From: Neptunitalea lumnitzerae
GTDB lineage: Bacteria; Bacteroidota; Bacteroidia; Flavobacteriales; Flavobacteriaceae
Assembly (NCBI RefSeq): GCF_027924185.1
Contig: NZ_BRVO01000001.1
Span: 558,001-622,000 of the forward strand
DNA length: 64,000 nucleotides
Direction of reading: 5' to 3'
Positions 35,259 to 61,850 of the stretch are shown piece by piece. The translations under genes were made by a program, and so were the position numbers. Each line of letters begins with the position of its first letter. Positions within the stretch are counted from its first letter, which is position 1. The notes beneath the pieces were generated by a model. It ran no database searches. It was not told the DNA's origin and saw nothing but the letters and a program-made list of their open reading frames with translations.

Positions 35259-37130
35259 TTATCGTCCCATATAAACCAGCATAATACTAATATCACTAGG
35301 AGAAACCCCACTAATACGAGAAGCTTGCGAAAGCGTTGCTGGTTTAATCTTCTTTAATTTTTCTCTTGCCTCAAAAGATACAGAAGTTAATTTATCGTAA
35401 TTAAAATTGGCAGGAATTCTAATATCCTCTAACCTATTTAGTTTATCTGCATTATTCTTCTCTTTTGCTATATAACCCGAGTATTTAATTTCTATCTCTG
35501 TTTGCTCTAACACCTCGGTATCTAAATCATGTTCTTTAATATACTCGGCAACCTCTGCAAACTGCTTCATATGATCCATAGTAACCTTTGGTCTAGAAAA
35601 TACTTTATACATTTTATCAGACTGTTTCATAGGAGCCGAATTCAAATCATCTAAAACAGGATTAGCATCTTCAGGTTTTAAACTCGTTTCTTTGAAAAAG
35701 TTAATAAAGGCATTAGCCTTTTGTTGCTTTTCTTCCATACGAATCATACGAGATTCTTTTGCCAAACCAATATCGTACCCTCTTGGTGTTAATCTAATAT
35801 CAGCATTATCTTGACGTAACAAAGTTCTATACTCTGCTCTAGAGGTAAACATACGGTATGGCTCCTCAGTACCCTTGGTAATAAGGTCATCTATTAACAC
35901 CCCTATATACGCTTCGTTTCTTTTCAAAATAAACTCCTCTCTACCCTGTACCTTTAATGCAGCATTAATACCCGCCATTAAACCTTGAGAAGCCGCTTCT
36001 TCATATCCGGTAGTACCATTAATCTGACCCGCAAAATACAACCCAGAAACTAATTTAGTTTCTAATGTATGTCTTAACTGAGTTGGTGGAAAATAATCAT
36101 ACTCTATAGCATAACCAGGTCTAAAGAATTTTACATTTTCAAAACCAACTACAGAACGCAGTGCTTTAAATTGTACATCCTCTGGTAACGAAGTAGAAAA
36201 ACCATTAACATAATACTCCACCGTATTCCAACCTTCTGGCTCTACAAACATCTGATGACGATCCTTATCTGCAAAACGATTAATCTTATCCTCAATCGAT
36301 GGGCAATATCTCGGGCCTACACTTTTTATAGAACCATTAAACATAGGTGATCTGTCAAAACCAGAACGCAATACATCATGTACTGCTTCACTAGTATACG
36401 TCATATGACAATCTCTCTGTTTTGTCAAAGGCTTTGTAACATCTGAATACGAAAATTTCTCAGGATTTTCATCACCCGGCTGCGCTAGCATTTTATCAAA
36501 ATTCAAAGAACGACCGTCCACTCTTGGAGGTGTTCCTGTTTTCATTCTACCAGCTTCAAAACCTATATTCACCAAATCTTCTGTAATACCAGTAGCAGCT
36601 CTTTCACCTGCTCTACCACCTCCAAATTGTTTCTCACCAATATGAATTAAACCATTCAAAAAGGTACCATTGGTAAGTACAACAGATTTAGCATATACCT
36701 CAATTCCCAGAGATGTTTTCACCCCCTTTATAACTCCATCCTTAATAATAAGTCCGGACACCATTTCTTGATAAAAATCTAAATTAGGTGTATTTTCAAG
36801 CATGGTTCTCCACTCTTCAGCAAACCTCATACGGTCACTTTGAGCACGTGGTGACCACATAGCAGGACCTTTTGACTTATTCAACATTTTAAATTGAATA
36901 GCCGTTTTATCTGTTACAATTCCACTATAACCACCCAGTGCATCTATCTCTCTAACTATCTGCCCCTTTGCAATACCACCCATAGCCGGATTACAAGACA
37001 TCTGCGCAATGTTTTGCAGATTCATTGTAATAAGCAACGTACTAGCTCCCATATTCGCGGCCGCTGCCGCGGCCTCAGAACCAGCATGCCCTGCACCCAC
37101 TACTATAACATCATATTCTCTATCAAACAT
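35259..37130 (-). CDS. mnmG: tRNA uridine 5-carboxymethylaminomethyl modification enzyme
   Basis: A 623-residue flavoprotein that, with the GTPase MnmE, modifies the wobble uridine of certain tRNAs. The FAD motif is VVGAGHAGSEAAAAAA near residues 10-25. Family motifs CNPAMGGIAKG and GEKQFGGGRAGERA, the PRVDGRSL loop and the C-terminal IRIPANFNYDKL and SRISGVSPSDI are all present. Full length. Genes called gidA lie near oriC in many bacteria. It is flanked on both sides by parS-like palindromes (35240 downstream, 37147 and 37186 upstream). Confidence 0.97.
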   Translation of the reverse strand: MFDREYDVIVVGAGHAGSEAAAAAANMGASTLLITMNLQNIAQMSCNPAMGGIAKGQIVREIDALGGYSGIVTDKTAIQFKMLNKSKGPAMWSPRAQSDRMRFAEEWRTMLENTPNLDFYQEMVSGLIIKDGVIKGVKTSLGIEVYAKSVVLTNGTFLNGLIHIGEKQFGGGRAGERAATGITEDLVNIGFEAGRMKTGTPPRVDGRSLNFDKMLAQPGDENPEKFSYSDVTKPLTKQRDCHMTYTSEAVHDVLRSGFDRSPMFNGSIKSVGPRYCPSIEDKINRFADKDRHQMFVEPEGWNTVEYYVNGFSTSLPEDVQFKALRSVVGFENVKFFRPGYAIEYDYFPPTQLRHTLETKLVSGLYFAGQINGTTGYEEAASQGLMAGINAALKVQGREEFILKRNEAYIGVLIDDLITKGTEEPYRMFTSRAEYRTLLRQDNADIRLTPRGYDIGLAKESRMIRMEEKQQKANAFINFFKETSLKPEDANPVLDDLNSAPMKQSDKMYKVFSRPKVTMDHMKQFAEVAEYIKEHDLDTEVLEQTEIEIKYSGYIAKEKNNADKLNRLEDIRIPANFNYDKLTSVSFEAREKLKKIKPATLSQASRISGVSPSDISIMLVYMGR

Positions 37131-41054: not shown

Positions 41055-42074
41055 CTAATTTAATCTAAAAACAATAGGGTATGAAAAAGTTACTTTCTCA
41101 GATTCATTACGTAGCGTAAAAGGTTTATACTTAAACAAACGTATGATACGTTTTGCTTCTTCTTCAAAACCAGGATGAGCATCTGACGTAGCATCAAGTA
41201 CTTCCACAGTACCATCAGGATAAATTGTAAAATTCACATAAGTTCTAGAAGACAAATTAGCGTTTCTTAAGAAATCAGGATATGCAAATGTATTTTTCAC
41301 ATGCTCGTCAAGTGCACTTTTAAAATCCTTTTTATCTATTTCTATAGGCGATTTATAACTACTCCCCTTTTCATCAAAACCTTCACTTCTAATTAACTTA
41401 TCATTTTCATCATGGTAATAAATCCAACTTACAGCACCACTATCATAATAAAATTTTTCCTTGTACGTGTTGTTAAAACCATCTACCCTAACAAACTGAA
41501 TTTCTCCAACATTTTTGAAAAATACAATTGAATCTCTAGTTTCATCTAAATGATACACTTTTTTAGAAGGATCCCCATTTTCCAAAAAAGCACTCATTTG
41601 CTTCACAAATTTGTCTTCTTTCATCACATAAGTTCCAGAAACCAAACCATTCTCATGATAACTGGTAAACGTACCCTCTTTCTGGTCATCTACATAAAAG
41701 CCAACTTTTTTTAAAGGACCCTCTTCATAAAATTGTTCATACCTTCCTTGTTTCATACCAGACTCATAAAAAATCCATTCTTTTAAATTACCATTTCGGT
41801 AATAGGTTTTTAATGTATCTATATAACGTCCACGCTTATCAACAGTACCTTCACATTCTAAATAATCATTACCTATAGCTATGTAAAAATCTTTAAAAGT
41901 TACCGTTTTATTCACTGCTTTATCAGCAAAAACTCTTTTGTAAATGGGTAATTTAGTTGTTTCTTGGTTCTTATCCATCTTCAAATACTGTACCTCACCT
42001 ACAAACTTTTGTGAAAAACTTTCAAATCCTGTTAATAGCATGCATAAATACACGCATAAACTAATGTGTTTCAT
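41055..42074 (-). CDS. TonB C-terminal/MORN-repeat envelope protein
   Basis: A 339-residue secreted protein. The signal peptide is about residues 1-22. MORN/YwqK-like repeats appear in NGNLKEWIFYESGMKQGRYEQ and the following -EGPLKKVGFYVDDQKEGTFTS pattern (about 90-170). A TonB C-terminal domain occupies about 255-339 (RTYVNFTIYPDGTVEVLDAT). Automatic annotations often call such repeats an antitoxin, but there is no toxin partner. The protein probably works in the envelope. It is the first gene of the operon with DUF4175 and ybeY and diverges from gltX. Confidence 0.75.
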   Translation of the reverse strand: MKHISLCVYLCMLLTGFESFSQKFVGEVQYLKMDKNQETTKLPIYKRVFADKAVNKTVTFKDFYIAIGNDYLECEGTVDKRGRYIDTLKTYYRNGNLKEWIFYESGMKQGRYEQFYEEGPLKKVGFYVDDQKEGTFTSYHENGLVSGTYVMKEDKFVKQMSAFLENGDPSKKVYHLDETRDSIVFFKNVGEIQFVRVDGFNNTYKEKFYYDSGAVSWIYYHDENDKLIRSEGFDEKGSSYKSPIEIDKKDFKSALDEHVKNTFAYPDFLRNANLSSRTYVNFTIYPDGTVEVLDATSDAHPGFEEEAKRIIRLFKYKPFTLRNESEKVTFSYPIVFRLN

Positions 42075-42159
42075 TCTTACTTATTGGTTTTTATAACTTA
42101 TAAAATTACAATATATTATTATATAAACAGGTTGTTAACATCTAAACTTAAAATCTTTG

Positions 42160-42167
42160 TACTTTTG
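42160..42167 (+). promoter_or_regulatory. -7 box of gltX
   Basis: TACTTTTG matches TAnnTTTG, 20 bp before the gltX ATG at 42188. Confidence 0.5.
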
Positions 42168-42187
42168 TGCCTTTAAAAATATTCACA

Positions 42188-43705
42188 ATGACTAAACCCG
42201 TAAGAGTACGTTTTGCACCTAGCCCAACAGGGCCATTACACATTGGTGGTGTACGTACAGCATTATTCAACTATTTATTTGCTAAAAAAAATAACGGTAC
42301 ATTTTACGTAAGAATAGAAGATACCGACCAAAACCGATTTGTTGAAGGTGCTGAAGCATATATTTTTGAGGCTTTAGAATGGTTAGGAATTGCACCTGAC
42401 GAAACCGTAGGAGTTAACGAAAAATTTGGTCCTTACAGACAAAGTGAACGTAAAGATGTATACAAACAATATGCAGATGAATTAGTAGCTGCTGGTAAAG
42501 CCTACTATGCCTTTGATTCTGCTGAAGACTTAGATAAACAACGTGCTACAGCTGAAGCAGCAGGGAAAACGTTTATCTACAACTGGGAAAATCGTGGAAC
42601 ATTAGATACTTCTATCAACTTAACCGAAGAAGAATTGAATACGCGACTAGCAAAAGGAGACCCATTTGTAATCCGTTTTAAAATGTATGATGCAACTACG
42701 GATGCTGAAACCATAGAAGCTACAGATTTAATACGTGGTAATGTTAGTTTTAAAAGAGCCTTATTAGATGATAAGGTGTTATTTAAACAAGACGGATTAC
42801 CTACCTATCACCTAGCAAATATTGTAGACGATCATTTAATGGAAACCTCTCATGTGATACGTGGCGAAGAGTGGTTACCTTCTTTACCGTTACACATTGC
42901 TTTATATGAAGCATTTGGTTGGGATGCACCAGAATTTGCACATTTACCATTGATAATGAAACCTGTAGGAAAAGGTAAATTAAGTAAACGTGACGGTGAT
43001 AAATTAGGTTTCCCTGTATTTCCTTTAGATTGGAAAACTGCAGATAGTTTTTCTATGGGATATAGAGAACAAGGGTATTTTCCAGAAGCTGTTGTAAATT
43101 TCTTAGCCCTTTTAGGTTGGAATGATGGTACCGATAAAGAACTATTTTCATTAGAAGAATTAATAGCTGCTTTTGATTTGTCTAGAGTGAATAAATCTGG
43201 AGCTAAATTTGACCCGGAAAAGAACAAATGGTTCAACCATCAATATTTACAGGAGAAAGATGATGCTGAAATAGCAACCTTGTTTTTACCAATAGTACAA
43301 TCACATACAACTAGTAACTTAGAAACTGTAACCAAAGTAGTTAGCTTAGTGAAAGAACGTGCTAATTTTATAACAGATCTTTGGGAACTGTCTGATTACT
43401 TTTTTGTTACGCCTACTGAATATGATGCTAAAGCTTCTAAAAAACAATGGAAGGAACAAACTCCTGAAATTATGAAAGAGCTTATAGCCATTGTAAGCGG
43501 TATAGAAGAGTTTACTTCTACAAATACAGAAACCGTTGTTAAGAACTGGTTACAAGAAAAAGGGTACGGATTTGGACAAGTGATGCCTCCGCTACGCTTA
43601 TCATTAGTAGGTGCTATGAAAGGTCCTCATGTATTTGATATTGTAGAGCTATTAGGAAAAGAAGAAACCTTATTACGCATACAAAAAGCAATAGACACTT
43701 TATAA
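42188..43705 (+). CDS. gltX: Glutamate--tRNA ligase
   Basis: A 505-residue class I aminoacyl-tRNA synthetase. I place the start at ATG 42188 (MTKPVRVRFAPSPTGPLHIGG), which fits the family; an earlier in-frame TTG/ATG would overlap the promoter. The HIGH motif is HIGG at 18-21 and the KMSKS motif is KLSKR near 265. VRIEDTDQNR and HVIRGEEWLPSLPLHIALY are also present. It charges tRNA-Glu in the cytoplasm. A strong terminator follows at 43711. It has its own promoter and is divergent from the TonB-MORN gene. Confidence 0.96.
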   Translation: MTKPVRVRFAPSPTGPLHIGGVRTALFNYLFAKKNNGTFYVRIEDTDQNRFVEGAEAYIFEALEWLGIAPDETVGVNEKFGPYRQSERKDVYKQYADELVAAGKAYYAFDSAEDLDKQRATAEAAGKTFIYNWENRGTLDTSINLTEEELNTRLAKGDPFVIRFKMYDATTDAETIEATDLIRGNVSFKRALLDDKVLFKQDGLPTYHLANIVDDHLMETSHVIRGEEWLPSLPLHIALYEAFGWDAPEFAHLPLIMKPVGKGKLSKRDGDKLGFPVFPLDWKTADSFSMGYREQGYFPEAVVNFLALLGWNDGTDKELFSLEELIAAFDLSRVNKSGAKFDPEKNKWFNHQYLQEKDDAEIATLFLPIVQSHTTSNLETVTKVVSLVKERANFITDLWELSDYFFVTPTEYDAKASKKQWKEQTPEIMKELIAIVSGIEEFTSTNTETVVKNWLQEKGYGFGQVMPPLRLSLVGAMKGPHVFDIVELLGKEETLLRIQKAIDTL

Positions 43706-48328: not shown

Positions 48329-48399
48329 GGCATCGTGGCCGAGTGGCTAGGCAGTGGTCTGCAAAACCATGTACAGCGGTTCGAATCCGCTCGATGCCT
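48329..48399 (+). tRNA. tRNA-Cys (GCA)
   Basis: A complete cloverleaf: acceptor stem GGCATCG/CGATGCC, D-stem GCC/GGC, anticodon loop CTGCAAA with anticodon GCA, T-stem AGCGG/CCGCT with loop TTCGAAT, and discriminator T, as expected for tRNA-Cys. CCA is not encoded. A terminator follows at once. Confidence 0.97.
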
Positions 48400-50106: not shown

Positions 50107-52302
50107 TCAACCTAATACCTGTTCCTTACTTCCTATTAAATCAAAGTCTAAATGGCGTTTCATTAAATCGGTAGATTTCACTTTAACAACCACTTCATCT
50201 CCTAACTGATAAACATTTTTTGTTACTTCGCCTACAATAGCAAATTGTTTCTCATCAAAGGTATAGTAATCATCATCTATATCTCTAATACGAATCATCC
50301 CTTCACACTTATTCTCAATAATTTCTACATAAATACCCCATTCTGTAACGCCCGATATAACACCTAAGAACTGCTGATCTTTATGATCTTCCATAAACTT
50401 AATCTGCATATACTTAATGGAATCTCTTTCGGCATTAGCAGCTAAACTTTCCATATCAGAAGAATGCCTACACTTATCTTCATATTCCTCTTCTTTTGCT
50501 GAAGCACCTCCATCTAAATACAATTGTAATAAACGGTGTGCCATCACATCTGGGTAACGTCTAATAGGCGATGTAAAATGACTGTAATAATCAAATGCTA
50601 ACCCATAATGCCCAATATTATCGGTAGTATATTTTGCCTTACTCATACTTCTAATAGCCATAGTATCTACAAGGTTTTGTTCTTTTTTACCTTGTACATC
50701 ATGTAACAAACTATTTAAAGATGAAGTAATGGTTTTTCTATTTTTCATGTTCAAGCTATAACCAAATCTTGAGATAACACCTTGTAAAAGCATTAGCTTC
50801 TCATCATCTGGTTCATCATGTACACGATACACAAACGTTTTTTCTTGTTTAGAAACAAATTCTGCCACTTTTCTATTAGCAAGTAACATGAACTCCTCAA
50901 TTAACTTGTTAGCGTCTTTAGCCTCTTTAAAATACACTCCTACGGGCTCGCTTTCTTCATTCAAGTTAAACTTTACCTCTACTTTATCAAAAGAAATAGC
51001 ACCATGACTCATACGTTTGGTTCTCATTTTTTTGGCTAAAGCATCTAAGGTTAAAATAGCTTCTACAATAGGGGCTTCTACCTCATAAGCTTCTCCGGTT
51101 AAAGAAAGCTGTTCAGGTATTATATGTTCCTTAGTTTCTATAATGTGTTGTGCTTCTTCATACGCAAAGCGTCTGTCTGAATAAGTAGCCGTTCTACCAA
51201 ACCACTGACTTACCACTTCTGCTTTCTCATTTAGTTCAAACACAGCAGAAAAAGTATACTTTTCTTCATGTGGGCGTAACGAACATGCATTGTTAGATAA
51301 CACTTCTGGTAACATAGGCACTACCCTATCTACTAAATATACCGATGTAGCTCGGTTATAAGCTTCATCATCTAAAATGGTTCCGGGTTGTACATAATGC
51401 GAAACATCTGCAATATGAATACCTACTTCAAAATGTCCATTCTCTAATTTTTCAAAAGATAAGGCATCATCAAAGTCTTTGGCATCTTTAGGATCTATGG
51501 TAAACGTAAGTGTTTTACGCATATCTCTACGTTTCGCAATTTCTTCTTCTTTAATACTGGTATCTAACTGGTTAGCATAATGTTCTACCTCTAAAGGAAA
51601 ATCATAAGGTAACCCATATTCTGCTAAAATAGCATGCATTTCGGTATTATGTTCGCCTGGTTTACCCAGTACTTCAATTACCTTACCGTATGGTGAATCA
51701 GCTTTTTCTGGCCAATCATTAATTTCTACAATAACTTTATCACCATTTTCTGCAGTACCTAATTTATTCTTGGTAACAAAAATATCGGTATACATTCTAA
51801 AGTCTGTTGGCACCACAAAAGCAAAGTTTGGATGCATTTGTACAATACCTACAAAATGTATTTTCTTACGCTGAATAATTTTAGTAATCTCACCTTCAAG
51901 CTTTTTACTATTTCTTCTTTTAGGGAATACATATACCTCTACTTCATCGCCATGCAATGCTTTGTTCAACATATTGGCAGGTATAAATACATCCTGTTCT
52001 AAATCATCACAAATAACATAAGCATTACCTTTTCCAGTAACATCTACAATACCTGTAAAATAATTTAAGTTAGGAATGGCTCTATATTTACCACGTTCTG
52101 GTTCTTCAATACGCTTACTTTCTTTCAGCTGAACCAATTTTTTAATCAATAAATTTCTTCCTGAAGTATCTGTAATATCTAGCTTAGCAGCTATCTGTTT
52201 GTAGTTAAACAGTTGATTAGGATTCTTTTCTAAAACGGTAAATATGCCTTTAGTAATTTCATTCTTCTTATGCTTCTCCGCTCTTTTTTTCTTTCTTGAC
52301 AT
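50107..52302 (-). CDS. rnr: Ribonuclease R
   Basis: A 731-residue processive 3'-5' exoribonuclease. The ATG at 52302 (MSRKKKRAEKHKKNE) is preferred over a TTG two codons upstream. Domains are an N-terminal winged helix (about 15-70), two cold-shock domains (about 80-220), the RNB catalytic domain (about 260-580), and a C-terminal S1 domain (about 650-725). The catalytic aspartates are seen in TIDPKDAKDFDDALSFE. It degrades structured RNA. Its start faces the candidate oriC region, 215 bp before a small ORF. Confidence 0.96.
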   Translation of the reverse strand: MSRKKKRAEKHKKNEITKGIFTVLEKNPNQLFNYKQIAAKLDITDTSGRNLLIKKLVQLKESKRIEEPERGKYRAIPNLNYFTGIVDVTGKGNAYVICDDLEQDVFIPANMLNKALHGDEVEVYVFPKRRNSKKLEGEITKIIQRKKIHFVGIVQMHPNFAFVVPTDFRMYTDIFVTKNKLGTAENGDKVIVEINDWPEKADSPYGKVIEVLGKPGEHNTEMHAILAEYGLPYDFPLEVEHYANQLDTSIKEEEIAKRRDMRKTLTFTIDPKDAKDFDDALSFEKLENGHFEVGIHIADVSHYVQPGTILDDEAYNRATSVYLVDRVVPMLPEVLSNNACSLRPHEEKYTFSAVFELNEKAEVVSQWFGRTATYSDRRFAYEEAQHIIETKEHIIPEQLSLTGEAYEVEAPIVEAILTLDALAKKMRTKRMSHGAISFDKVEVKFNLNEESEPVGVYFKEAKDANKLIEEFMLLANRKVAEFVSKQEKTFVYRVHDEPDDEKLMLLQGVISRFGYSLNMKNRKTITSSLNSLLHDVQGKKEQNLVDTMAIRSMSKAKYTTDNIGHYGLAFDYYSHFTSPIRRYPDVMAHRLLQLYLDGGASAKEEEYEDKCRHSSDMESLAANAERDSIKYMQIKFMEDHKDQQFLGVISGVTEWGIYVEIIENKCEGMIRIRDIDDDYYTFDEKQFAIVGEVTKNVYQLGDEVVVKVKSTDLMKRHLDFDLIGSKEQVLG

Positions 52303-52516
52303 AAACAATTTTCTAATTGGCTATAATGTACAAATATTTTAATCGATAATTGATATTAAATAATTTAAGCCTGTTTTAAATTTTAATTAGGTAACCAACA
52401 AAAATCTATTACAAAGTAAACCTTTGAAACACCTTTTACCAACCTAAAAAAAATAAAAGTTAAAATTTTATTAAAAAAAATGTAATAATAAGAAAGTTTT
52501 AACGTCTATTAAGTAT

Positions 52517-52699
52517 ATGAGAAAAATTTACATAGTCATAGTATTCTTTATAGGTCTGTTTTTAACAGGTCTTATATACTTTGTTATTACCATAGATAAA
52601 TCTTTTCAACAGCAAGAAAAGGTAATGATCAAAATAAAACATACTCCTAAGGCTACTTCCTTCCAATACTACATACAAGAAGATACACTTTCTGTATAA
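52517..52699 (+). CDS. Small hypothetical membrane protein
   Basis: A 60-residue ORF with one strong hydrophobic segment (about residues 4-27, MRKIYIVIVFFIGLFLTGLI) and a polar tail (KHTPKATSFQYYIQED). It does not resemble a family I know. It lies in the otherwise gene-free DNA between rnr and rpiB, on the plus strand, with no recognised -7 box. It could be a real small envelope protein or a chance ORF; the alternating hydrophobic start favours the former slightly. Confidence 0.4.
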   Translation: MRKIYIVIVFFIGLFLTGLIYFVITIDKSFQQQEKVMIKIKHTPKATSFQYYIQEDTLSV

Positions 52700-53384
52700 C
52701 ATACATTTCAATTACAAAATTATCATTCTTTCATAGCATATCAATTTCTAATCAAAACTATTTTCATTTTCTTAAACACATTTGTTATCAACATATATTA
52801 TATATCTCTTTTTTTCTTTCTTTAAAATTTTAAAAATAATTGTGATTATAATGGTGTGTTAATAGCGGTATATTTTTTTTAATAAATGTTTTTTTTTTCT
52901 GTTATTAAAAGTACTTCTACAGTAATTAACATTAAATTTACATTCTAAACGTTTAATTTTCAATTGCTTTTTAACCTTTATCAACAACTGTTTATAATTA
53001 TTAACAGGGCTAAATTTTTAATATTTTTAGGTGTTGATAGCTGTTAATAATGGTTGTTGACATTGATGATAACTTTGGATAAATATTTAAAAAATTTACT
53101 TGACAAATTCAAAATAGTTTACAATAGGAATATATTCAGTTAACATCAAAATAATTTTAGTAGTTTTTTACAACTAGTTTTCAACAATTCATGTAAAGTT
53201 ATAACTAATTGAATTTTAAGTAATTGTAAAAAGAAATTTTATCAGTTGTTTATAACCATTTAATTGGTTGATTTATAAAGTGCTAAACTGTGTATAACTA
53301 CATTTTAATGTGGTTCAATATAAATATAAGCCCAAGGTATTTTGTAAATTTGTATCGGTACTAATCAATTTAAATATAAATATT
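52700..53384. other. Candidate chromosomal origin of replication (oriC)
   Basis: This 685 bp stretch has no gene. DnaA-box-like 9-mers (consensus TTATCCACA) are: TTATCAACA at 52785 and 52978, TTATTAACA at 52998, TTTTCAACA at 53178, and on the minus strand CTATCAACA at 53032, TTATCCAAA at 53074 and TTATACACA at 53289. A poly-T/A-rich part at 52861-52912 could serve as the unwinding element. Gene direction changes from mainly minus (rnr and earlier) to plus (rpiB onward) here. Position next to rnr and rpiB, and the parS cluster 15.6 kb away, support it. No experiment or skew calculation was possible. Confidence 0.6.
53345..53352 (+). promoter_or_regulatory. -7 box of rpiB
   Basis: TAAATTTG matches TAnnTTTG, 32 bp before the rpiB ATG. 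Confidence 0.4.
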
Positions 53385-53813
53385 ATGAAAATTGCTATAG
53401 GTAATGATCATGCAGGTCCTGAATATAAGAAGGCAATTGTTGATTATCTTACATCTGAGAACATTGAGGTTACTAATTACGGAACCGATACTGCTGATAG
53501 TGTGGACTATGCAGATTTTGGTCATCCTGTTGCTACCGATGTGGAAACAGGTGCTGTAGATTTTGGTATTGTAATTTGTGGTAGTGGTAATGGTATTTCT
53601 ATGACTGTTAATAAACATGCTGGGATACGTGCTGCTTTGTGTTGGACCAAAGAGATTGCCGAGCTGGCACGCCAACATAACGATGCCAACATATTAAGCA
53701 TACCAGCACGTTATACCTCTATACAACAAGCAGTTGAAATGGTTAAGACCTTTTTAAATACTGAGTTTGAAGGTGGCAGACATGCTACTAGAATTGCTAA
53801 AATACCTTGTTAA
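53385..53813 (+). CDS. rpiB: Ribose-5-phosphate isomerase B
   Basis: A 142-residue enzyme interconverting ribose-5-phosphate and ribulose-5-phosphate in the pentose-phosphate pathway. The start at ATG 53385 (MKIAIGNDHAG) fits the family; an upstream in-frame extension is not conserved. D8 and H9 in GNDHAG and the catalytic C65 in ICGSGNGISMTVNK are present. It precedes the Fur-family gene by 3 bp, so both probably share a transcript. Confidence 0.94.
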   Translation: MKIAIGNDHAGPEYKKAIVDYLTSENIEVTNYGTDTADSVDYADFGHPVATDVETGAVDFGIVICGSGNGISMTVNKHAGIRAALCWTKEIAELARQHNDANILSIPARYTSIQQAVEMVKTFLNTEFEGGRHATRIAKIPC

Positions 53814-59728: not shown

Positions 59729-61351
59729 TTACTGAAGAATAGAATTATATTTAGGGGAATCTTTCAAAAGTTTCGTAGCTATAACTACAGACTCATCATG
59801 AGTTAAGTTATAGGTATACAGACCTTCTTTATAGAAATAATGTTTAATAATATCATTTTCTATAGCATGTCTTATTTCCGTTTTATAAGTGTCTAATGCT
59901 TGTTCTTTATTATTTTCTAACGTAGAAAGAAGGTTCTGGTAAGATATTTTAACATCGTTTCCTAACGCTTCTAGCTCATTCTTAGTAAGTAAGTTTTTAA
60001 GCTTTTTCTCCGTTTCTGTTTCAAAGTTAAAATCACTTTTCAATACAAACCTTTTAAATCTATTATAGTCGCCATCAGAAAATTCAAAGTCGGCAGCACT
60101 TTTTACAGTATTGTTGTAGTAATAGTCATTCACATAGTCAAATATCACATAATCGTTGATTAAAGACTTAGTGAAGTCACTATTTTTCGCTGATGCTACC
60201 TGAATATCGGGCATAATACCACCACCATCATAAACAGTTCTGCCATTTTTGGTTTGAAAAGCATTAAAGTCTTTTTCCTGCGTTCTTACAGCGTTATTGT
60301 TGGCATCTCTATGCCAGTAGTCTAATGCTTGTATACAACGTCCGCTAGGCGTGTAATAACGAGATATGGTTACTTTTAATTGGGTACCGTAAGATAACTT
60401 TAAGGGGCGTTGTACTAAACCTTTACCAAAACTTCTGTCGCCTATAACCACTGCCCTATCTAAATCTTGTAATGCACCCGATACAATTTCACTAGCCGAT
60501 GCACTGCGCCCATTTACTAAAACCACCAACGGAATTTCGGTATCTACAGGTTTTTTCTTGGTCTTATAGGTTTGATTGAACTTTTTAACTTTAGATTGTG
60601 TGGTTACAATAACCTCGTCTTTATCTACAAACAAATTACAAATATCAATGGCTTCTCTTAGTAAACCACCAGGGTTGTTACGTAGGTCTAAAACTAGTTT
60701 ATTAACCCCCTGCCCTTTTAAATCTTCTAAGGCTTCTTTTACTTGTTTAGAGGCTTTGTTATTAAAACGTTCTAAAACAATATAACCGGTGGTTTCATCT
60801 ATTTTTCCGTAAAACGGTACGGCATCAATTTCAATTCCTTGTCGCTTAACCTCGGTAGTAAATTGTTCTCCTTGTCTTTTATAAGTTATTTGTATGGTAG
60901 AGTTGGGAGCTCCTTTAAGTAAGTCACCAGCATTATCATTAAAATCTTTAATTACTATGTCATCAATTTTAACAATTTCATCTCCTGCTTTTAGCCCTGC
61001 TACATCTGCCGGATAGCCTTTATAAGGCTCAATAATAATTAATTTATTCTCAAATGTACGAATACTAGCACCTATTCCGCTGTATTCTCCACTTTGGTTA
61101 ATGCGGTAATTGGCAACATCTTGTTCATTTAAAAAGTTGGTATAAGGGTCAAGATCTTCCAACATACTTTTAATGGCGGTATCCATTAATTCGCCAGGGT
61201 TGGTATCATCTACATAGTTCATATTCAGTTCTTTGAACAGTGTAGTGAAGATCTCAATCTGTTTAGAGATTTCAAAAAAATCGTTTTTAAAAGAGGTACC
61301 TACAAATAATAAAACTACAGCCGCACAGCAGATGATAATCTTCTTCTTCAT
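59729..61351 (-). CDS. S41-family C-terminal processing peptidase
   Basis: A 540-residue periplasmic serine protease. An N-terminal membrane segment or signal (about 5-20) is followed by a PDZ domain (about 85-165, SGIGASIRTFENKLIIIEPY) and the S41 domain. Catalytic residues by alignment are S285 in NGRSASASEI and K310 in SFGKGLVQ. It resembles CtpA/Prc, which process proteins from their C-terminus. It precedes two genes, GNAT and LuxR, in one unit and follows rnpA by 63 bp. Confidence 0.93.
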   Translation of the reverse strand: MKKKIIICCAAVVLLFVGTSFKNDFFEISKQIEIFTTLFKELNMNYVDDTNPGELMDTAIKSMLEDLDPYTNFLNEQDVANYRINQSGEYSGIGASIRTFENKLIIIEPYKGYPADVAGLKAGDEIVKIDDIVIKDFNDNAGDLLKGAPNSTIQITYKRQGEQFTTEVKRQGIEIDAVPFYGKIDETTGYIVLERFNNKASKQVKEALEDLKGQGVNKLVLDLRNNPGGLLREAIDICNLFVDKDEVIVTTQSKVKKFNQTYKTKKKPVDTEIPLVVLVNGRSASASEIVSGALQDLDRAVVIGDRSFGKGLVQRPLKLSYGTQLKVTISRYYTPSGRCIQALDYWHRDANNNAVRTQEKDFNAFQTKNGRTVYDGGGIMPDIQVASAKNSDFTKSLINDYVIFDYVNDYYYNNTVKSAADFEFSDGDYNRFKRFVLKSDFNFETETEKKLKNLLTKNELEALGNDVKISYQNLLSTLENNKEQALDTYKTEIRHAIENDIIKHYFYKEGLYTYNLTHDESVVIATKLLKDSPKYNSILQ

Positions 61352-61414: not shown

Positions 61415-61795
61415 TTAACGCGTAATAAGTTCATTTTGTATAAACTTTTCAAGTAAACCTTGCATTTTATTTTGAATTAAAACAAAATCAGGAATATCTT
61501 TTCCTGTATAAATAAACATAAATGCATAGGTGGTACCTAGCTGTTCTACCAACATAGGTTTTTGCAACCTGTACGCTTCTCTCATGAGTCTTTTAATACG
61601 GTTTCTTGTTACCGCCTTTTTAAAAAATCTTTTTGGAACCGAAACAGCTGCTTGAACTGGTACATCTTTGGTAAGTGAAGTAGAAACGTACACAAGCTTT
61701 AGCGGATACTTAGATACAGATTTTCCTTCAGAAAATAATTTCTGAATGAGAATTTTACTTTTAAGCTTTTCTTCTTTTGGAAAACTGAAATTCAT
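61415..61795 (-). CDS. rnpA: Ribonuclease P protein component
   Basis: A 126-residue basic protein that helps the RNase P RNA trim tRNA 5' ends. The start at ATG 61795 (MNFSFPKEEKLKSKILIQKLF) fits the family; an earlier ATG would add seven residues with no match. The conserved RNA-binding motif RNRIKRLMREAYRL is at about 70-83. rnpA is close to oriC in many bacteria, usually with rpmH, which is not adjacent here. It follows the membrane gene at 61851-62462 by 55 bp. Confidence 0.93.
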   Translation of the reverse strand: MNFSFPKEEKLKSKILIQKLFSEGKSVSKYPLKLVYVSTSLTKDVPVQAAVSVPKRFFKKAVTRNRIKRLMREAYRLQKPMLVEQLGTTYAFMFIYTGKDIPDFVLIQNKMQGLLEKFIQNELITR

Positions 61796-61850
61796 AAATA
61801 TCATTGAGTATGGCAAAAGTAATGAAATACTGCTACCCTACACAACTCTT

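Follow-up and report, generated by a model that had tools for sequence, protein, structure and literature searches.

Between the divergent genes rnr and rpiB of Neptunitalea lumnitzerae lies an AT-rich intergenic region that carries a cluster of DnaA-box-like 9-mers (Table 1). We analysed it within a 64-kb window (C1:558001-622000), where C1 is a 1.68-Mb contig of the 3.85-Mb draft genome in 11 contigs. G+C content falls to 20.1% in 52700-53384, compared with 32.9% for the whole window. The initial annotation had singled this out as the only long gene-free stretch, and the segment at 52309-53309 (1,001 bp, 21% G+C) is indeed the longest without an open reading frame (ORF) of at least 100 amino acids, the runner-up measuring 419 bp. 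In its left part, between rnr and the candidate core, sits a 60-codon ORF (52517-52699, plus strand) whose N-terminus looks hydrophobic by eye; it gave no Pfam match and no convincing relative among 80 rpiB loci, and an alignable stretch is present in the genus sister. An Rfam search of 45-60 kb at gathering thresholds returned nothing but a tRNA at 48329-48399.

The surroundings include several housekeeping genes near the candidate origin. To the left lie mnmG and two ORFs that by eye resemble gltX (42167) and glnS (46017), and rnpA (61418-61816, minus strand) is found about 8.5 kb from the core. The switch in gene direction proposed for this point exists locally, from rnr on the minus strand to five plus-strand ORFs at 53.3-58.2 kb, but does not extend further, as genes beyond are again on the minus strand up to 70.8 kb. 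Gene-strand bias is weak across the sampled contig as a whole, with 54% of 296 ORFs on the minus strand to the left and 58% of 363 ORFs on the plus strand to the right.

Table 1. Features of the rnr-rpiB intergenic region and its two flanking genes, in window coordinates.
Feature	Position	Strand	Basis or remark
rnr (RNase R), left neighbour	50107..52308	-	RNB domain PF00773, E 1e-108; start codon per ORF finder, true start may differ
Candidate oriC region, AT-rich, with DnaA-box-like 9-mer cluster	52700..53384	none	Box score, G+C
Candidate origin core, 89 bp	52784..52872	+	Alignment of 44 sequences; own-genome E 6.3e-13
TTATCAACA, DnaA-box-like, left core box	52785..52793	+	Exact; highest weight of 42 variants; in 46/62 intergenic regions
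Candidate DNA unwinding element, T/A-rich, between core boxes	52793..52852	none	No 60-mer in the 64-kb window is less stable
Five triplets with conserved middle A, DnaA-trio-like	52839..52853	-	T at 52840, 52843, 52846, 52849, 52852 on +
CTATTAACA, DnaA-box-like, right core box	52857..52865	-	Weight 3.38
TAATTAACA, weak box-like	52923..52931	+	Weight 1.87
TTATCAACA, DnaA-box-like, second cluster	52978..52986	+	Exact match; differs in genus sister
TTATAAACA, weak box-like	52989..52997	-	Weight 1.35
TTATTAACA, box-like	52998..53006	+	Weight 2.57
CTATCAACA, box-like	53032..53040	-	Weight 3.31; differs in genus sister
TTATTAACA, box-like	53042..53050	-	Weight 2.57; differs in genus sister
TTATCCAAA, one mismatch from TTATCCACA	53074..53082	-	Not enriched in relatives (3/62, 2.2 expected)
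TTTTCAACA, weak box-like	53178..53186	+	Weight 1.92
TTATAAACA, weak box-like	53247..53255	-	Weight 1.35
TTATACACA, one mismatch from TTATCCACA	53289..53297	-	Not enriched in relatives (2/62, 1.6 expected)
rpiB (ribose-5-phosphate isomerase B), right neighbour	53385..53813	+	PF02502, E 6.2e-58

Two identical 9-mers and near-consensus variants on both strands had first drawn attention to the region. The identical pair is TTATCAACA, exact at both of its plus-strand positions, and 14 sites within one or two mismatches of TTATCCACA fall in 52690-53400 (5 plus, 9 minus). The window contains no exact TTATCCACA, and over its full length neither TTATCMACA (3 found, 2.09 expected) nor TTATCCACA allowing at most one mismatch (18 sites, 20.9 expected) occurs in excess, so that only a local test is informative. 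The box excess is local: the best 600-bp count is 14 (start at 52977), the next is 8 and the mean is 2.6. We also scored boxes with weights for 42 variants, learnt from 61 relatives alone and applied to 1.23 of the 3.85 Mb of this genome. The 650 bp from 52598 reach the top score in the sampled 1.23 Mb (27.5, with the next at 14.5). For the region itself the score is 25.6, compared with 2.8 +/- 2.6 for sequences resampled as first-order Markov chains rather than exact shuffles, and 0 of 2,000 resamplings attain the region's score. The excess over resampled sequence is clear. The second-best cluster of the sampled genome, at 41695-42344 (score 14.5, with TTATCAACA at 41836), overlaps the 5' end of a minus-strand ORF (41055-42074).

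The same box is common at this locus in relatives. Among the 80 best rpiB relatives, whose titles name mostly Flavobacteriaceae genera or Bacteroidetes metagenome-assembled genomes (MAGs) and which are not independent samples, rnr was matched upstream of rpiB in 73 loci, 162 to 3,133 bp away. Dropping 12 of these for length left 61 intergenic regions of 300-1300 bp, which together with this genome gave 62 for unbiased 9-mer counting. TTATCAACA occurs in 46 of the 62 (1.5 expected), with GTTATCAAC, GTTGACAAC and CTATTAACA likewise near the top of the ranking, and TTATCCACA occurs in 4 (0.33 expected). Around rpiB in 29 family-sample genomes, four box variants were found 66 times upstream (up to 1.5 kb) versus 13 times downstream (1.5 kb), in a strand-corrected count that includes one locus with only 260 bp upstream; at least one such box lies upstream in 26 of the 29 genomes and downstream in 12. 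Because the genus sister keeps the core boxes and differs in those at 52978, 53032 and 53042, the second cluster is less fixed than the core.

This core, 89 bp long, is shared by most of the family's sampled genera. Its consensus over 44 sequences opens with GTTATCAACA and a T/A-rich block some 45 bp long, followed by ATGRTGNTTATNATRG, two unconstrained positions and TGTTAATA, and the letters of TGTTAATA in the right box are kept in 41, 44, 44, 43, 36, 44, 41 and 41 of the 44 aligned sequences. The two core boxes face inward and flank the least stable 60-mer. In its own genome the core has no strong match other than itself (E 6.3e-13; the next candidate reaches 0.077, with 150 of 6,304 first-look candidates scored). 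At E <=0.01 it is present in 55 of 60 family-sample genomes and missing from 5; the best match lies within 1.2 kb of rpiB in 50, and in the other five it stands 2.8 kb or 37 kb away or on a contig other than that of rpiB. Of the 39 genomes from which the model took no sequence, some of which may share species with training loci, 34 have the core, 29 of them near rpiB. In a phylum sample searched with stricter filters, all seven family members (this genome included) had the core, none of the 12 other members of the order and class did, and 3 of the 61 remaining genomes gave a weak match (E 5e-4 to 9e-3).

A profile built earlier from 23 sequences had matches at E <1e-3 in 81 of the 113 sequences scanned and never twice in one (54 of 80 rpiB loci, 24 of 29 family-sample loci and 3 of 4 others), where the 113 include the 23 profile builders and two duplicate loci (L127 = L042, L128 = L118). 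Since the 26 unmatched rpiB loci include many from Flavobacterium, with F. covae (L118/G003) among them, the core is widespread yet diverged or absent in part of the Flavobacteriaceae, and it may have diverged in part of Flavobacterium. Some of the 32 failures among the 113 are truncated contigs and others, such as F. covae, are not. Many Flavobacterium loci without a core match at that threshold, F. covae included, keep the rnr-rpiB order, and F. covae also keeps the skew switch. In another genome, a weak match (G026:C1:991828-991917) is separated by 37 kb from rpiB and by 285 kb from mnmG, perhaps marking a rearranged origin neighbourhood or perhaps arising by chance. As expected of an oriC, the core is a single site kept in relatives, though not in all of them.

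A poly-T/A-rich block had been noted beside the boxes. By nearest-neighbour energy, the least stable 60-mer of the window lies within the core, its first base being the final base of the left box. The least stable 600-mer likewise starts at 52793, and at 100 bp the least stable stretch (52445) is in the same intergenic region. Next to the right box, a block of five triplets is strongly conserved: T on the plus strand occupies alignment columns 59, 62, 65, 68 and 71 in 43, 42, 44, 44 and 44 of 44 rows. These minus-strand triplets end 3 bp from the box at 52857. Three triplets can also be read in the other polarity, at 4 bp, where A is invariant only at columns 67 and 70 and is present in 26 and 13 of the 44 rows at columns 61 and 64. 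Our comparison of polarity draws in part on general background about the B. subtilis trios. The published rule for the basal unwinding system (BUS) asks for at least three NAN triplets lying no more than 16 bp from a DnaA box (PMC8287927). The sequence next to 52857 agrees with this rule, a weak test given how easily NAN is satisfied in AT-rich DNA. The block may be called trio-like, with a putative role in DnaA extension.

Strand composition places the candidate near a switch. GC skew is negative in 15 of 15 sampled stretches of C1 to the left of the window and positive in 22 of 22 from contig position 642 kb onward, with -0.024 at 622-642 kb. Raw cumulative skew over the contiguous 122 kb of C1 540-662 kb has two minima, at window positions 70,559 (-4251) and 52,988 (-4089); the shallower falls inside the candidate and the deepest lies 17.6 kb to the right. 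We also fitted a strand-corrected break (a logistic model of fourfold-degenerate sites, taking gene strand as covariate, over 659 ORFs from the sampled contig). The best break is at 60,005, about 7 kb to the right; moving it to 52.4 kb or 53.8 kb costs 5.8 or 4.4 log units, and moving it to 69.6-86 kb at least 13. The switch is therefore near the candidate and not exactly on it, within about 7 kb after strand correction and 18 kb in the raw curve. Minus-strand genes after 58.4 kb had been counted against the argument from gene direction, an objection that is answered in part: at fourfold sites read on the plus strand, 6 of 9 at 59.7-70.8 kb have G > C, as in the right arm, but 4 of 5 plus-strand ORFs at 53.3-58.2 kb still have C > G.

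Elsewhere in the genome, C2 has positive skew at its start and at 100 kb, mixed skew at 200-500 kb and negative skew at 600-1100 kb, and 5 of 6 stretches of C3 are negative (coverage beyond C1 to C3 was limited to the opening stretches of C4, C5 and C6). Together with the switch on C1, this pattern agrees with a single origin on C1 and a terminus on C2. Skew was also sampled in relatives. F. covae (G003), whose skew fits best, has negative values in ten stretches up to 980 kb and in two beyond 3.0 Mb, and positive values in eight at 1.0-2.7 Mb; the sign changes between 980 and 1000 kb, and a 2-kb profile turns at 990 kb, the position of rpiB. Four further genomes have the expected sign around rpiB in 10/10 (G059), 10/10 (G024), 9/10 (G062) and 7/10 (G035) stretches, the nearest of which are about 100 kb from rpiB and so place the switch only roughly. 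One complete MAG (G002) showed no clear skew.

The genome has a single Bac_DnaA match, which puts dnaA at C2:794138-794623. Domain IV of the protein aligns to solved DnaA chains, as expected of a box-binding domain, and reads KRDHATVLHA where the best solved chain (8btg) has GRDHTTVIHA. A change at the domain IV threonine could accompany the changed box. We rejected dnaA itself as the origin site: skew is -0.150 at C2:780-800 kb and -0.093 and -0.108 in the flanks, and being negative at dnaA and on either side it places the gene away from the switch. In eight single-contig family genomes, dnaA lies 47-98% of half a chromosome from the core, close to the opposite point in several (lengths were rounded for four of the eight, and the core match of G026 is weak).

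Taken together, we consider it very likely that chromosome replication in this genome starts from the rnr-rpiB intergenic region, as the initial annotation had proposed. The reading draws its support from the nearby skew switch, the top box score, the family-wide core and the instability of the DNA. Weighing against it are the distance of 17.6 kb to the raw skew minimum and the missing core match in F. covae. The region is close to the switch, enriched in boxes, unstable and conserved, and its core is present in single copy. From these features we infer a working model, in which DnaA would bind TTATCAACA-type boxes and the cluster at 52978-53050 would collect the protein. The inward-facing core boxes (52785, 52857) would frame the T/A-rich 60-mer, which would open first, and DnaA could then spread along a single exposed strand, possibly following the triplet-phased block next to the right box. 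Helicase loading would follow, with forks departing both ways. More tentatively, and with somewhat less than even confidence, we suggest that Flavobacteriaceae share a family-specific core with non-canonical inward-facing boxes, a melting element and a triplet-phased strand-capture block nearly flush with the right box, which would amount to a lineage-specific rearrangement of the box-plus-trio arrangement in an origin uncoupled from dnaA.

Published predictions raise the question of whether the origin is instead beside mnmG (window 35268-37115), with the rnr-rpiB region merely neighbouring. In two reports, Ori-Finder placed the origin beside mnmG in two other Flavobacteriaceae, reportedly in agreement with GC skew: Mariniflexile litorale, where dnaA does not align with the skew and a figure legend reverses the origin and terminus labels relative to the text (PMC11278836), and Algorimicrobium strain KMM 8389 (PMC12843772). 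Among the 48 family genomes that have mnmG and the core on the same contig, the start of mnmG is also less than 70 kb from the core in 46. The two exceptions are G028, where a circular record probably wraps around, and G026, which is 285 kb off and is the genome with the weak core match. In our window, however, skew is negative on both sides of mnmG (-0.219 at 34-36 kb, -0.324 at 36-38 kb and -0.330 at 38-40 kb), no break point at mnmG is among the 15 best, the nearest ORF 5' of the gene is about 90 bp away and ORFs overlap on the other side, and the box cluster and core sit at rnr-rpiB. We therefore regard an origin at mnmG as very improbable here. By extrapolation to the two published species, their predictions would name the right neighbourhood and perhaps the wrong intergenic region.

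An origin located rightward of rpiB by some 7 to 20 kb, with the rnr-rpiB cluster left as a relic or auxiliary site, would suit the raw skew minimum at 70,559 and the best corrected break at 60,005. Skew minima, however, can move through local rearrangement or gene-strand effects; no other sampled 650 bp scores above 14.5 against 27.5, the rightward ones listed (window 54239, L017) reach 12.3, and the core of relatives adjoins rpiB, which leaves this placement highly unlikely. Box clusters that titrate DnaA are known elsewhere, and divergent promoters probably lie within the intergenic region, so the boxes could in principle belong to a promoter region between rnr and rpiB that titrates DnaA or is regulated by it, rather than to a replication start. 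Yet promoters need neither such length nor single copy, instability or a conserved core, and the skew switches nearby both here and in relatives; we give this explanation almost no weight.

For the Flavobacteriaceae, an origin at the rnr-rpiB intergenic region would be a fairly ordinary genome landmark with an unusual layout. In the parts of the literature covered, no rnr-rpiB origin was described, although DoriC may list one; no paper turned up that linked rpiB with oriC in flavobacteria, and no title on ribonuclease R and oriC in Bacteroidetes concerned a flavobacterial origin. The region would offer a base-level origin in a family where two reports placed origins by skew and an indicator gene (PMC11278836, PMC12843772). 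The core can be searched for directly, which could help to orient genomes and to derive growth rates from coverage, and its layout provides a comparison case for DnaA-dependent origin opening outside the E. coli and B. subtilis models. Because dnaA is far from the core in eight genomes, initiator gene dosage should differ from that in organisms with dnaA at oriC.

Like the oriC of E. coli and DnaA-dependent origins in general, the region combines a box cluster, an AT-rich unwinding element and a nearby skew switch, one per chromosome, but its preferred box is TTATCAACA or YTATTAACA and not TTATCCACA, and it lies between rnr and rpiB, away from dnaA. With the BUS of the B. subtilis oriC, it shares a triplet-phased block in which the middle A is conserved and which lies 3-4 bp away from a box (PMC6669920, PMC8287927). 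In contrast to the BUS, the five-triplet phase is on the strand carrying the box sequence, the triplets are not GAT repeats, only two middle A positions are invariant in the other polarity, and a second inward-facing box stands across the AT-rich block. The mnmG predictions for Mariniflexile litorale and Algorimicrobium KMM 8389 probably concern the same chromosomal neighbourhood, and that for M. litorale also places the origin away from dnaA (PMC11278836), whereas the box cluster and core described here are at rnr-rpiB, about 16 kb from mnmG. Overall, the kind of element is known; as far as the literature was searched, what is new is a widespread core with non-canonical inward-facing boxes, situated away from dnaA.
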